64,000 nt of DNA from Desulfatibacillum sp. (lineage in GTDB: Bacteria; Desulfobacterota; Desulfobacteria; Desulfobacterales; SpSt-501), in contig DYEU01000018.1 in NCBI GenBank assembly GCA_020725555.1, forward strand, positions 1-64,000, in the 5' to 3' direction. A program made the translations under genes and the position numbers. Positions 5,552-10,604 of this stretch are shown in pieces. Positions within the stretch are counted from its first letter, which is position 1. Each line of letters opens with the position of its first letter. Below the pieces are notes generated by a model. That model was not told the DNA's origin. It saw only the letters and a program-made list of their open reading frames with translations, and ran no database searches.

Positions 5552-6802
5552 ATGAAGGACGTCGTCATCGCCGCCGCATGCCGCACCGCCATCGGAGCCT
5601 TCGGGGGAAGCCTGCGCGACCTCCACGTGACCCGGATCGCCGCCGTCGCCATGAAAGGCGCCGTCGAACGCGCGGGAATCGATCCCGCCCTGATCGACGA
5701 CGTCCGATTCGGCTGCTGCCTCGAGCCCGTCGACAGCATGAACATGACCCGCATCGGCGCCCTGCTCGCCGGGATCCCCGAGACGGTGACCGCGGCCACG
5801 ATCAACCGCGTCTGCATCTCGGGCATGGAGGCCGTGGTCTCGGGCATGGCCATGATCCAGGCGGGCATGGCCGAGATCGTGCTCGCCGGGGGGGCCGAGC
5901 ACATGTCCGGGGCGCCCTACTCGGTGTTCGGCGCCCGCTGGGGCTGCCGGCTCCAGGACCACGTCTTCGTGGACAACATCACCCGCGGCCTGCACTGCGG
6001 CTCGCACCTCATCCCCCACCCCGAAACCGGGCCGGTCGACGCCTCGCAGCCGCCGCTCAGCCTCTACAAGGGAAAGCCCTACATCATGGGGCTGACCGCC
6101 GAGTTCGTCGCCCAGCACTACGGCATCAGCCGCGAGGCCATGGACGAGATCGCGCTGCGGAGCCACAACAACGTCGAGCGCGCGACCCGCGAAGGCGATT
6201 TCCGCGAGGAAATCGTCCCCGTCGTGATTCCCCAGCGCAAGGGGGAGCCGGTCGTCTTCGAGCGCGACGAGCATTTCCGGCCGGGGATCACCTTGGATCA
6301 GCTGCGCCGCCTGCCGCCGGCCTTCGTCCCCGAGATCGGCAAGGTGACCGCGGGCAACTCAAGCGGCATCAACGACGGGGCGGCGGCGCTCGTGATCCTG
6401 TCGGCCGAAAAGGCCCAAGAGCTCGGCACCCGGCCGCTCGCCCGCATCCGGGCGGTCGGCCGCGGCGCCTGCCACCCCTCGGTGATGGGCCTGTCGCCCG
6501 TCCCGGCGGTGCGCAACCTGCTCTCCCGCAGCGGGCTTGCGCTCTCCGACTTCGAGCTGATCGAGGTGAACGAGGCCTTCGCCGCCCAGTACCTGGCGGT
6601 CGAGCGGGAACTGGGCCTCAACCGCGAGATCACCAACGTGAACGGCTCGGGCATCGGCCTCGGCCACCCCGTGGGCGCAACCGGCGCGCGCATCCTGGTC
6701 ACGCTGATCCACGCCATGAAACAGCGCGGCAAGACGCTGGGGCTCGCGACCCTCTGCGGCGGGGGCGGCGTGTCCATGGCCTGCGCCGTGGAGATGCTCT
6801 GA
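5552..6802 (+). CDS. Thiolase family protein (acetyl-CoA acetyltransferase)
   Basis: Condenses or cleaves acyl-CoA thioesters in the cytoplasm (acetoacetyl-CoA formation or beta-oxidation). The 416-residue protein shows the thiolase fold with the nucleophilic cysteine at residue 88 (NRVCISGM), GHPVGATG with the base His at about 372, and the second active cysteine near 402 (LCGGGG). A NEAFAAQ motif is also present. AAAGGAG precedes the ATG. It is longer than biosynthetic thiolases (about 390) because of an insertion around residues 150-180, rich in Cys, His and Pro. Substrate chain length cannot be read from sequence. An acyl-CoA dehydrogenase is encoded 40 kb away in this window. Confidence 0.93.
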   Translation: MKDVVIAAACRTAIGAFGGSLRDLHVTRIAAVAMKGAVERAGIDPALIDDVRFGCCLEPVDSMNMTRIGALLAGIPETVTAATINRVCISGMEAVVSGMAMIQAGMAEIVLAGGAEHMSGAPYSVFGARWGCRLQDHVFVDNITRGLHCGSHLIPHPETGPVDASQPPLSLYKGKPYIMGLTAEFVAQHYGISREAMDEIALRSHNNVERATREGDFREEIVPVVIPQRKGEPVVFERDEHFRPGITLDQLRRLPPAFVPEIGKVTAGNSSGINDGAAALVILSAEKAQELGTRPLARIRAVGRGACHPSVMGLSPVPAVRNLLSRSGLALSDFELIEVNEAFAAQYLAVERELGLNREITNVNGSGIGLGHPVGATGARILVTLIHAMKQRGKTLGLATLCGGGGVSMACAVEML

Positions 6803-6890
6803 GCGGTGGAGGCGGCCGCCGCCCTGGAAAGGCTCGGGGCCGGGGGGAGTCTTGAGCGGCGGGCCTTGGCGGCGGCCGGAAAACGAGCGG

Positions 6891-6920
6891 TTGACAAACG
6901 GCGCGCGCCGGGTGTAGGGG
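6891..6920 (+). promoter_or_regulatory. Possible mgtA promoter
   Basis: A perfect TTGACA (-35) at 6891-6896. The -10 is poor: TAGGGG at 6915-6920 with an 18-bp spacer, so the promoter would need an activator. Transcription would start near 6927 and give a leader of about 200 bases. Confidence 0.35.
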
Positions 6921-6964
6921 AGGCCCGGCTTTCGTTTGCCGCAAGTGAACCGACCCCGTCCCTC

Positions 6965-6989
6965 GAACGAGACCGATGAACGAGACCGA
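6965..6989 (+). repeat. Perfect 12-bp tandem repeat at the leader ORF start
   Basis: GAACGAGACCGA occurs twice (6965-6976 and 6978-6989), separated by one base, so with a 13-base period. The leader ORF start codon lies at the junction (6976-6978). Confidence 0.7.
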
Positions 6990-7077
6990 CGCCAGCCATT
7001 CAGGCCCCAACGGACGTGAGCGGGGGAACCTTCCGCCCCCCGGCGCGACCGCCCGCCGCCTCCCCTCTGCGGGATAG
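6976..7077 (+). CDS. Candidate mgtA leader peptide (33 residues, Pro-rich)
   Basis: Open frame of 33 codons starting ATG and ending TAG. Residues 19-23 read Leu-Pro-Pro-Pro-Gly, a class of sequence known to stall ribosomes and to need elongation factor P; further prolines are at residues 11 and 30. The codons for the PPP run sit inside a small hairpin (GGGGGAA with TTCCgCCCCC, about 7022-7040). The stop codon lies seven bases before the left arm of the hairpin that masks the mgtA ribosome-binding site. There is no strong Shine-Dalgarno sequence, only GAACGAGACCG. In Salmonella, mgtA is known to be controlled by translation of a proline-rich leader, mgtL; the resemblance here is in logic, not sequence. 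A 33-codon frame can occur by chance in this GC-rich DNA. Confidence 0.45.
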   Translation: MNETDASHSGPNGRERGNLPPPGATARRLPSAG

Positions 7078-7083
7078 ACGCAC

Positions 7084-7128
7084 GGTTCGCCTCCGGTCCC
7101 CCGCCGCGGCCCGCACCGGAGGTGAACC
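7084..7128 (+). promoter_or_regulatory. Hairpin sequestering the mgtA ribosome-binding site
   Basis: Left arm GGTTCGCCTCCGG (7084-7096), 19-base loop, right arm CCGGAGGTGAACC (7116-7128). The 13-bp stem is complete apart from one G-U pair, and its right arm contains the whole Shine-Dalgarno sequence and ends at the base before the ATG. Folded, it should block mgtA translation. A competing 6-bp pairing is possible between TGCGGG (7068-7073, end of the leader ORF) and CCCGCA (7110-7115, in the loop). Confidence 0.7.
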
Positions 7129-9798
7129 ATGAGCGTCTCCCCGGCCGATCTGCGAAAGCCCGCCGCCGGGACATCCCCGTCGCCCCGAGGCAGCCGCCTC
7201 GTCCCGGAGGACAACGAACGCCGCCTGAAGGAACTCTGCGCACTCGCCGTTCCCGAGGCGCTCGGCCGTCTCGGAAGCGGCGAAAACGGGCTCTCCTCCG
7301 CCGAGGTCGAACGCCGCCTCGACGAATTCGGGCCCAACGAGCTCGCGCGCGAGGAGGAGCGGGGCGTCGTGGCCGATCTGCTCCATCGGCTGAGAAACCC
7401 CCTCAACATCCAGCTCCTGGTCATCGCCGCCGTCTCGGGGGCGATCGGCGAACTCAAATCCCTGGTCATCGTCGGGGCCATGGTCCTGCTGAGCGTGGGG
7501 CTTTCCTTCGTCCTCGACCGCCGCTCCGGCCGCGCCGTGGACGCCCTCGGCAAACGCGTGGAGTCCCGCAGCCTGGTCCTGCGGGACGGGTCCGCCACCG
7601 AGGTGGAGATCTCCCAGATCGCCCCCGGGGACGTCGTCCTGCTGCAGGCGGGCGCGGTGATCCCGGCCGATCTGCGCCTGATCGCCGCCAAGGATTTTTT
7701 CGTCAGCGAGTCCGCCCTGACGGGGGAGTCCATGGCCGTCGAAAAAACGGCGTCCGAATCCGGGACGGCCGGGGCGGCCTCCCTCCTCGAGCTCCCCAAC
7801 GCCTGTTTTTTCGGCACCTACGTGACCAGCGGCACGGCGCGCGGCCTCGTGGTGAACACCGGGACGCGGACCGTGTTCGGGTCGATCTCGAAACAGCTCG
7901 CCGGGCGGCGGGAGGAAACGAGCTTCGACCGCGGGGTCCGCTCTTTCACCTGGCTCATGATCCGCTTCATGACGGTCATGGTGGCGACCGTGTTCCTGAT
8001 CGTCGGGTTGACCAAGGGCGATTGGATCGAGGCCTTGCTTTTCGGGCTCTCGATCGCCGTCGGGCTGACCCCCGAGATGCTGCCCATGATCGTGACCGTG
8101 AACCTCGCCAAGGGGGCGCTCACGATGGCCGGCCGCAAGGTCATCGTCAAGCGGCTCCCCTCCATCCAGAACTTCGGCGCCATGGACGTCCTGTGCACCG
8201 ACAAGACCGGCACCCTGACCCAGGACCGGGTCGCCCTCAAGCGCCACGTGGACATCACCGGCGCCGACAGCGAGGACGTCCTCGCCTACGCCTACCTGAA
8301 CGCCTATTACCAGACCGGCCTGCGCAGCCTGATCGACCGCGCCGTCCTGGAGCACACCGACCTCGACGTCGAGGCGAACTGCCGGCGGGTCGACGAGCTG
8401 CCCTTCGATTTCCAGCGCCGACGGATGTCGGTCGTGGTCGATTACGAGGGCGCCCACGTGCTGATCTGCAAGGGGGCGGTCGAGGAGATCTACCAGTGCT
8501 GCGGCAGCTACCAGATCGGCGAGGACGTCTTCCCCCTCATCCCCCTGATCCGCAACGACCTCTTCGAGGAAGTCGGCCGCCTGAACGAAGAGGGCTTCCG
8601 CGTCCTGGGGGTCGCCTATCGCGAGTTCCCGCGCTCGAAAACCCAGTTTACCGTCGCCGACGAACGCGATCTCATCCTGCTCGGGTACATCGCCTTTCTG
8701 GACCCGCCGAAGCTCTCGGCCATCGAGGCGATCGAGGCCGCGGCCAAGCTCGGGGTCCAGGTCAAGATTCTCACCGGGGACAACGCCCTCGTGACCCGCA
8801 AGGTCTGCCGGGACGTCGGCCTTCCCGTGCGGCGTCTCCTCGGCGGGGCCGAGCTCGCGGCGCTGCCGCAGGAGGAACGGAACCGGCTGATCGAGGAAGG
8901 CAACGTCTTCGTCAAGCTCAGCCCGGGGCAGAAAGAGGAGATCGTCCGCAGCCTGCGTTCCCGGGGCCACGTCGTCGGCTTCCTGGGCGACGGCATCAAC
9001 GACGCCCCGGCGATGCGGGCCGCCGACGTCGCCATCTCCGTCGATTCGGCTGTCGATGTCGCCAAGGAGTCGGCGGACATCGTGCTCCTCGAGAAAAGCC
9101 TGGGGGTGCTCGAGGAGGGCATCCGCGAGGGGCGCCGCGTCTTCGCCAACATCGTGAAATACATCCGCATGGGGGCGAGCTCGAACTTCGGCAACATGTT
9201 CAGCGTCCTGGGCGCCTCTTACCTGTTCCCCTTCCTGCCGATGAAGCCGGTGCAGATCCTGACGAACAACCTGCTCTACGACGTTTCGCAGACCGGCATC
9301 CCCGCCGACCGCGTGGACGAGGACCAGGTCGAGAAACCGCTCTCCTGGAACATCGACAACATCCGCCGCTTCATGATCTTCATCGGGCCGGTGAGCTCGC
9401 TCTTCGACTACGCGACCTTCGCCCTGATGTGGTTCGTCTTCCGCTGCAGCCGGGCCGCCGACCCCGCCCTCGGCGCCTTCGAACGCGAGGCGCTGATCAG
9501 CCTCTTTCAGACGGGGTGGTTCGTCGAGTCGCTGCTCACCCAAACCCTGATCGTCCACATCATCCGCACCCGCCGCGTGCCGTTTTTCGGCAGCCGGGCC
9601 TCGGCCCCGCTTCTGCTGACGACCCTCGCCGTCATGGCCGTCGGCGCCTGGCTGCCGTACTCGCCGCTTGCGGAGGCCTTCGGCATGGTGCCGCTCCCCC
9701 TCGCCTACTGGGCCTGGATCGCGGGGTTTCTCATCGCCTACGCAGCCCTCACGCACCGGGTGAAGGTCTGGTTTTTCAACCGCTACGGAGGGAATTGA
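7129..9798 (+). CDS. mgtA: Magnesium-translocating P-type ATPase
   Basis: Inner-membrane P3B ATPase that imports Mg2+ using ATP. The 889-residue protein has an N-terminal cation-ATPase domain, membrane helices, the actuator motif LTGES (about residue 200), the phosphorylation motif DKTGTLT (about 360), a nucleotide domain and the hinge GDGINDAP (about 620). It ends in a long C-terminal membrane block. The stretch NLLYDVSQTGIPAD after the P-domain is characteristic of MgtA/MgtB rather than calcium pumps. Length matches the family (about 900). The ATG directly follows CCGGAGGTGAACC, which is held in a hairpin. The 3' end is two bases from the EIIA-like gene, so the two are translationally linked. 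Control is likely at translation of the leader. Confidence 0.96.
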   Translation: MSVSPADLRKPAAGTSPSPRGSRLVPEDNERRLKELCALAVPEALGRLGSGENGLSSAEVERRLDEFGPNELAREEERGVVADLLHRLRNPLNIQLLVIAAVSGAIGELKSLVIVGAMVLLSVGLSFVLDRRSGRAVDALGKRVESRSLVLRDGSATEVEISQIAPGDVVLLQAGAVIPADLRLIAAKDFFVSESALTGESMAVEKTASESGTAGAASLLELPNACFFGTYVTSGTARGLVVNTGTRTVFGSISKQLAGRREETSFDRGVRSFTWLMIRFMTVMVATVFLIVGLTKGDWIEALLFGLSIAVGLTPEMLPMIVTVNLAKGALTMAGRKVIVKRLPSIQNFGAMDVLCTDKTGTLTQDRVALKRHVDITGADSEDVLAYAYLNAYYQTGLRSLIDRAVLEHTDLDVEANCRRVDELPFDFQRRRMSVVVDYEGAHVLICKGAVEEIYQCCGSYQIGEDVFPLIPLIRNDLFEEVGRLNEEGFRVLGVAYREFPRSKTQFTVADERDLILLGYIAFLDPPKLSAIEAIEAAAKLGVQVKILTGDNALVTRKVCRDVGLPVRRLLGGAELAALPQEERNRLIEEGNVFVKLSPGQKEEIVRSLRSRGHVVGFLGDGINDAPAMRAADVAISVDSAVDVAKESADIVLLEKSLGVLEEGIREGRRVFANIVKYIRMGASSNFGNMFSVLGASYLFPFLPMKPVQILTNNLLYDVSQTGIPADRVDEDQVEKPLSWNIDNIRRFMIFIGPVSSLFDYATFALMWFVFRCSRAADPALGAFEREALISLFQTGWFVESLLTQTLIVHIIRTRRVPFFGSRASAPLLLTTLAVMAVGAWLPYSPLAEAFGMVPLPLAYWAWIAGFLIAYAALTHRVKVWFFNRYGGN

Positions 9799-9800
9799 CC

Positions 9801-10604
9801 ATGGACAGCCTGCTGGATGCGCTGCAGGAGGGCCGGCTGATCGAACTGCCGGAAAACACCAAGGAGGACGCCCTGCGCTTCCTCGCCCACATTCTCGAGG
9901 CCATCCCGTCGCTGCCCGCGGGCCTCGACGTCGTGGGCGCGGTGATGGAGCGGGAGCGCTCCGCCGAGACGGCCCTCGGCGGCGGCTGGGCCTGCCCCCA
10001 CGCCCGCGTGCCCTTCGAGGAAGACCTGATCTGTGTCGTCGGCTGGAGCCCCCCGGGAATCGACTACGGCGCACCCGACGGAAAACCGGTGCACATCCTG
10101 ACCATGTACCTCGTGCCGCAGAACCAGAGAAACCACTTCCTGCGCGAGGTCTCGCTGCTGGCCAAGGCGCTGCGGCTCTACCCGGGTCTCGACCGGCTGG
10201 CGGCGGCGCGCGAGCTGAACGAGGTGCGCGACCACCTCCTCGAGCTGATCGTCACGGCGCGCGAGAAGGTCGGCCCCGAGAGCCGCGCGCGCATGATCCA
10301 GCTCCAGGCGCGGGTCGGCGGGGCGCTCGAGCCGCTCGAGGACCTCTCGCGGCTGAAGATCGAGCCGGTCACGGTGATCGCGGGCCCCGGCATGAAGCCC
10401 GTCGTGCTCACCCAGAACGCCGAGCTGGCGAGCGCCCTGGAAGCGGCCGGCGGGTGGGTGGAGAAGATCGAATCCGACGGGGTCGTCCAGAACGGGGGCT
10501 GGCGGCTGCTCCGGCGCGGCACGACCGTCTACGCGAACGAACGCACGGTCTACGACTGCCTGGCGATCGCCTCGGCGGGGAAAAAGGCGAACTCCGCCCG
10601 CTGA
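9801..10604 (+). CDS. PTS EIIA (type 2/PtsN-like) domain protein linked to mgtA
   Basis: A 267-residue cytoplasmic protein. Residues 1-150 match the fructose/nitrogen-type EIIA fold, with the phosphorylatable histidine at residue 67 in the motif WACPHARVP. The last 90 residues form a separate domain I cannot name. There is no PTS permease next to it, so a regulatory rather than sugar-transport role is likely. PtsN-type EIIA proteins are known to bind and regulate K+ transporters and kinases. Its start codon is two bases after the mgtA stop, which strongly suggests it acts on the magnesium pump or reports its state; that is inference. It could instead be a generic stress-linked EIIA-like protein. 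Confidence 0.85.
   Translation: MDSLLDALQEGRLIELPENTKEDALRFLAHILEAIPSLPAGLDVVGAVMERERSAETALGGGWACPHARVPFEEDLICVVGWSPPGIDYGAPDGKPVHILTMYLVPQNQRNHFLREVSLLAKALRLYPGLDRLAAARELNEVRDHLLELIVTAREKVGPESRARMIQLQARVGGALEPLEDLSRLKIEPVTVIAGPGMKPVVLTQNAELASALEAAGGWVEKIESDGVVQNGGWRLLRRGTTVYANERTVYDCLAIASAGKKANSAR

Follow-up and report, generated by a model that had tools for sequence, protein, structure and literature searches.

A conserved leader peptide and ribosome-binding-site hairpin upstream of mgtE and mgtA, very probably a magnesium-responsive translation switch of Thermodesulfobacteriota

Results

Leader and hairpin upstream of mgtA

The Mg2+ transporter gene mgtA of the window (the whole 64,000-nt stretch of Desulfatibacillum sp. 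DNA that was analyzed) is preceded by a leader-hairpin pair, very probably a translation switch that responds to magnesium and has not been described before. We estimate at about two in three (0.68) the probability that segment 6976-7131 is a conserved cis-acting mgtE/mgtA leader, in which abortion of translation at acidic codons under low Mg2+ opens the ribosome-binding site (RBS). Conservation, transporter linkage, covariation and the lack of a database match make translational control of a Mg2+ transporter by leader and hairpin well supported. The features of the locus are as follows.

6891-6896, + strand: promoter -35-like TTGACA, 85 nt 5′ of the leader ATG
6976-7077, + strand: leader ORF of 33 codons, MNETDASHSGPNGRERGNLPPPGATARRLPSAG, with its own Shine-Dalgarno weak or absent; stop TAG at 7075-7077
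6976-7002, + strand: conserved leader N-terminus M-N-E-T-D-A-S-H-S, a putative ribosome-destabilizing acidic motif
7020-7026, + strand: GCGGGGG, a weak anti-sequestor candidate; possible partners are the loop CCCCCGC (7098-7104) or the Pro codons
7033-7044, + strand: PPPG, codons 20-23, aligning with the second motif of the family, [DE][DE]PG
7078-7131, + strand: whole leader-hairpin element, matched by covariance models R1 (E 1.0e-9) and R2 (E 5.2e-10)
7084-7096, + strand: left arm of the sequestering hairpin, GGTTCGCCTCCGG, with anti-SD CCTCC at 7090-7094
7116-7128, + strand: right arm, CCGGAGGTGAACC, with the mgtA Shine-Dalgarno GGAGG at 7118-7122
7129-9798, + strand: mgtA, P-type Mg2+-transporting ATPase of 889 aa (TIGR01524)

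That the mgtA product is a true MgtA follows from its TIGR01524 score of 1058 bits, the cut-off being 611. Direct reading of the letters confirmed the 33-codon frame with LPPPG at residues 19-23 and the hairpin with the mgtA Shine-Dalgarno in its right arm, all coordinates of the original prediction being right to within a base. The stem does lie next to the leader stop and its right arm beside the ATG, but the gap to the stop is six bases rather than seven, and the arm abuts the ATG at 7129 instead of ending one base before it. The stem consists of 13 pairs, one of which is G.U. The longest uninterrupted helix at the start codon has 14 pairs, while among 2000 dinucleotide shuffles the maximum was 13 (three of them). 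No good -10 sequence was seen in the window for the -35-like TTGACA.

Directly 3′ of mgtA, at about 9800-10604 (+), we noticed a gene for a PTS EIIA_2-domain protein (PF00359, PtsN-like). Such a gene apparently follows mgtA also at loci L111 and L112, which suggests a conserved mgtA-EIIA operon. A 1024-aa open frame at 7000-10074 on the - strand, antisense to mgtA and the leader, is most likely an artefact of high GC content.

The leader family and its linkage to mgtE and mgtA

Among MgtA relatives with 69-73% identity to the window protein, five (L031, L032, L112, L128, and L129) showed an arrangement like that of the window. The leader was absent from L111 (genome G100), which belongs to the same taxonomic order and encodes an MgtA with 71% identity; at this locus a different ORF (MKQREIGLNRLLPQTGTIIQFQILYK...) overlaps the mgtA start. 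A first covariance model, built from five hairpins, matched further genomes, and at these additional loci the downstream gene encodes MgtE (PF03448, CBS, PF01769), another Mg2+ transporter. A refined model gave more loci, both in the phylum to which the window belongs and in its order. Altogether the leader family occurs in about 40 genomes of sulfate-reducer type, mostly of Thermodesulfobacteriota. With the window counted, the gene directly after the leader is mgtE at 24 loci (22 assigned by Pfam PF03448/PF01769 and two by tblastn) and mgtA at 15. As the two transporter families are unrelated and have only Mg2+ in common, this linkage counts for a role of the leader in Mg2+ response. The window belongs to the family by its R2 match, its leader ORF with a D-x-D-G-like start and a stop near the hairpin, and the Mg2+ transporter downstream. 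The claim that leader ORF and RBS-burying hairpin form a regulatory unit thus holds, since the unit is conserved before Mg2+ transporters.

Single copies outside the phylum, in a Chlorobium MAG (L033) and a MAG labeled Myxococcales (L032), had weaker model scores. A model search of the Myxococcota class of L032 (193 genomes) gave seven matches with E-values as low as 1.8e-4, and neither a leader ORF nor a Mg2+ transporter accompanied any of them; this value was taken as the false-positive floor, and weaker matches elsewhere were required to have both leader and transporter. Two candidates, L145 (E 0.007) and L167 (E 1.5e-4), were dropped for want of supporting context. L161 has the leader, and no transporter was matched within its stretch. 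The G695/L147 locus matches the Desulfosoma locus L031 at every base, an identity by which the phylum is assigned to Thermodesulfobacteriota. Rfam covariance models, including the M-box, gave no match in the window or in seven further loci, and the leader peptide matched no entry of Pfam or NCBIfam.

Covariation of the hairpin

The stem changes in a compensatory manner. Of 18 pairs, the number altered on both sides was 6 with five sequences, 9 with 16, and 11 with 36; for the two larger sets, where the structure had been fixed beforehand on the first sequences, none of 500 shuffles scored as high. When 20 sequences were aligned without regard to structure, 6 of 12 outer-stem pairs covaried; all but one of these sequences had no part in model building. 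Cells of the real stem were paired in about 90% of cases vs. about 30-50% for slid controls. RNAalifold on alignment A4 recovered only the lower eight outer-stem pairs. In nearly every member the stem abuts the start codon and contains the Shine-Dalgarno. With the RBS lying in the stem across members, inhibition of initiation is predicted, and the anatomy of the unit points to translation initiation as the control point, as originally proposed.

Conservation of the leader peptide

The N-terminus of the leader follows the consensus M-[N/S]-[D/E]-[S/P]-D-G-S-H-S, in shorter form M-[N/S]-D-S-D-G-S-H-S, with Asp5 invariant in a 22-member alignment. Codons 3-6 hold D-x-D-G as the motif of the whole family; at codons 3-5 most members have D-x-D, and the window has E3-T-D5. 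In codons 3-6 the variability of the third position (0.37-0.50) exceeds that of positions 1-2 (0-0.27), the pattern of a translated peptide under coding constraint. The reservation that a 33-codon frame could be due to chance is refuted by this conserved peptide. Together with the covariation of the hairpin, it provides the decisive evidence that the observation in the window is real.

Leaders of the family are 25-62 codons long, and most of them end with a stop 0-7 nt ahead of the element. Many members carry a second motif, [DE][DE]PG (DDPG), and the corresponding column of the window holds PPPG; this placement suggests a possible slow spot there. A -35-like TTGAC[ACT] was found 76-93 nt (mostly 85-93) before the leader start in the window and at L031, L137, L138, L148, L150, L152, L153, L158, L161, and L164, and the transcript therefore very probably includes the leader. 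At L166 we observed a recognizable leader start (ATGAACGACTCACCTGGCAGT) with an early stop at codon 11 and an intact hairpin, possibly a decaying copy.

The genome of the window contains a second leader of like design before mgtE (L169, G000:C29:78927-79235, MNSGDPGSSPSHRSPRDGSPAGPPPTPHRARNAPGSVPPR), and four genus mates have an mgtE leader too (L181, L182, L183, and L185), with the consensus M[NQ]xGDPGSSP[SC]HR. In these genus leaders the peptide is divergent and the hairpin sequence different, and the Shine-Dalgarno is again buried. Among the leaders read, PPP is restricted to the window and two of these five mgtE leaders and is absent outside the genus. The Pro codons, expected to be conserved in related leaders and to act as the sensor, hence do not bear out that role.

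A competing pairing in relatives of the window

As predicted by equilibrium folding, which takes no account of Mg2+ or of co-transcriptional effects, the mean cost of opening the Shine-Dalgarno is 11.5 kcal/mol without leader RNA vs. 7.6 kcal/mol with the leader from codon 10 on. The latter value is lower than the 9.5 kcal/mol of synonymous-codon shuffles (Wilcoxon p=0.002, 32 members; as the sequences are related, p is approximate). The reduction arises because in most relatives the end of the leader resembles the RBS arm and can pair with the left arm in its place, as with TGTGAATCG (L165), GTGAACCC (L160), and GGTGAAC (L112). From codon 10 on, the lowest-energy fold is the open form at L112, L151, L155, L158, L159, L160, L144, and L165, while at L031, L129, L137, L146, L152, and L163 the tail gives no help beyond that of shuffles. 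Plain duplex prediction between the leader tail and the left arm had shown a modest excess; it was superseded by the synonymous-shuffle test. These predictions speak against the proposed polarity, by which a lack of leader translation closes the site: with the tail acting as an anti-sequestor in relatives, aborted leader translation is predicted to open it.

This RBS-freeing pairing, predicted across relatives, was not seen in the window copy, where folding revealed no clear anti-sequestor and the leader tail is shorter. The Shine-Dalgarno of the window stayed closed for every 5′ boundary inside the leader, at an opening cost of 17.5 kcal/mol both with and without the tail. The GCGGGGG duplex (-30.4 kcal/mol) never wins in folds over the sequestering stem (-35.0 kcal/mol). 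TGCGGG (7068-7073) and CCCGCA (7110-7115), put forward as an alternative pairing, are present as sequences, but do not stand as an alternative state: the pairing would cross the stem as a pseudoknot and was not seen in relatives.

Discussion

Proposed mechanism and alternatives

In the mechanism that we favor, hairpin 3:4 would pair the transporter Shine-Dalgarno with the anti-SD arm, while pairing of the leader 3′ end (2) with that arm (3) would free the RBS, a step with statistical support in relatives rather than in the window. By analogy with mgtL and mgtQ, the genes would be ON at low Mg2+. With ample Mg2+, ribosomes would reach the leader stop and melt 2:3, so that the 3:4 hairpin shuts the RBS (OFF). 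At low Mg2+, ribosomes may stall or drop off at the early acidic codons by intrinsic ribosome destabilization; such an early abort would leave region 2 free, 2:3 would form and the transporter would be translated (ON). Although the window copy has kept the N-terminus of the leader and a hairpin at the usual distance from the stop, its switching is less certain because it has no clear anti-sequestor. It may use another pairing, rely on a pause at PPPG, or be partly decayed.

It is unlikely, though it deserves some weight, that the family is functional elsewhere and the window holds a copy that has decayed or become locked. Its leader is shorter than in relatives and has a weak Shine-Dalgarno, the anti-sequestor is missing and the stem is unusually stable; besides, the closely similar L111 locus has no leader and the leader frame of L166 is broken. 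Against this, the copy retains the hairpin, the acidic N-terminus and the family spacing of both promoter -35 and stop, and decay is not expected to leave 13 pairs.

The reading of the original prediction appears improbable. In it, a ribosome that completes the leader would mask the left arm and thereby expose the RBS, which would stay shut if the ribosome stalled at PPP or the leader went untranslated. Judged by toeprint spacing, a ribosome holding the leader stop in its A site would protect the window message to about 7087-7088. It would thus occupy only 4-5 of the 13 pairs, and opening the Shine-Dalgarno would still cost about 9-11 kcal/mol (about 5.5 with the ribosome edge at 7090), because CCTCC at 7090-7094 remains paired. 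The position of a terminating ribosome does seem constrained by the stop lying so near the element in most members, no other opening route is predicted in the window, and PPPG aligns with the second conserved motif. Nevertheless, this reading relies on PPP, which is not conserved, and importer output would drop if leader translation failed at low Mg2+, opposite to mgtL, corL, and mgtQ.

We give little credence to direct sensing of Mg2+ by the RNA, in which the hairpin, its inner stem and the 3′ GAAA side would sense in the manner of a riboswitch, and the leader ORF would be secondary. Both helices covary, and the Thioalkalivibrio mgtE motif, with the Shine-Dalgarno in a stem, has been published as an orphan riboswitch candidate (PMC11109978). 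But the element is only an elongated hairpin without a conserved complex aptamer and without an Rfam match, and a pure aptamer leaves the coding constraint on the leader peptide unexplained. Transcriptional control of the enterobacterial mgtL kind, with leader translation setting Rho access and the RBS hairpin as only a part of the folding, is improbable: gene and leader-peptide type are shared and Rho works in the mgtL and corL systems, but in almost all members the covarying stem occupies the Shine-Dalgarno and adjoins the start codon, and nothing resembling an intrinsic terminator was seen in 6400-7400.

Comparison with known systems

The acidic-codon abort that we prefer has its closest counterpart in Salmonella mgtQ-mgtB, for which the 2:3 vs. 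3:4 design is supported by mutation and acidic codons hinder leader translation, releasing the mgtB RBS (PMC8092293). As in the present family, there is a small uORF with early acidic codons, the transporter RBS lies in 3:4, 2:3 frees it, and control is translational (PMC8092293). In contrast, mgtQ has 8 codons, is intergenic (mgtC-mgtB) and enterobacterial, and serves mgtB; the leaders described here have 25-62 codons, occupy a 5′ leader, encode another peptide in another phylum and serve mgtE and mgtA, with a Mg2+ response proposed by analogy. The difference in length suggests an origin independent of mgtQ.

Under low Mg2+, ribosomes translating mgtL drop off at its acidic EPDP motif (PMC11282234), and in both mgtL and mgtQ early acidic residues destabilize ribosomes and the abort raises transporter expression (PMC11282234, PMC8092293). 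The mgtL-mgtA system of E. coli and Salmonella resembles ours, by description, in having an mgtA leader peptide with early acidic/Pro codons (EPDP) (PMC11282234, PMC11552253), and some leaders of the family begin MDPDG or MDTDP; an inverse relation of leader translation and transporter expression is expected in both. However, mgtL acts by Rho-dependent transcription termination, with no RBS hairpin of the present kind described (PMC11282234, PMC11552253). In corL-corA, uORF translation likewise inversely controls a Mg2+ transporter, but through transcription termination, with few acidic/Pro codons and for the CorA channel (PMC11552253). The Thioalkalivibrio mgtE motif, compared by description, is also a covarying RNA 5′ of mgtE with Shine-Dalgarno and AUG in a stem, but is confined to one gammaproteobacterial genus and regarded as a riboswitch candidate, with no leader peptide mentioned in the accessible part of the report (PMC11109978). 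The M-box (ykoK) riboswitch shares Mg2+ transporter genes as targets and Mg2+ as signal, but is a large aptamer. Leader-peptide control of mgtE was not found in the literature searched; the nearest cases were mgtL, corL, mgtQ, and the Thioalkalivibrio motif.

Evolution and meaning

In the window and at L159, mgtA itself begins at the hairpin. At L031, an 87-codon ORF (L031:2669-2932) runs from the start codon of the hairpin; its N-terminus is MgtE-like (28% over 58 residues, E 9e-4) and may be what is left of a decaying mgtE start, and its stop overlaps the mgtA start (ATGA), suggesting translational coupling. Similar short ORFs lie between hairpin and mgtA at L032, L112, and L128. Because of this MgtE-like ORF (one weak match) and the gene arrangement, the leader seems to have originated with mgtE and to have been captured later by mgtA.

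In enterobacteria, mgtL and mgtQ are known cases in which an acidic leader peptide that destabilizes the ribosome serves to sense Mg2+. We see an even chance that the ribosome serves as Mg2+ sensor of a phylum-wide Thermodesulfobacteriota regulon, in which abort at DSDGSHS would open the RBS of both mgtE and mgtA by an anti-sequestor/sequestor pair that evolved independently of mgtL and mgtQ and would be the first leader-peptide control of mgtE in the literature searched. While the evidence for a regulatory unit is good, Mg2+ sensing is suggested by analogy with the enterobacterial leaders. If true, a wide family in another phylum, serving two transporter families, would make the ribosome as Mg2+ sensor a general strategy. 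The conserved peptide M-[NS]-DSDGSHS offers a handle for dissecting ribosome-based Mg2+ sensing, and the switch may answer how mgtE and mgtA are controlled at loci in which no M-box was found.
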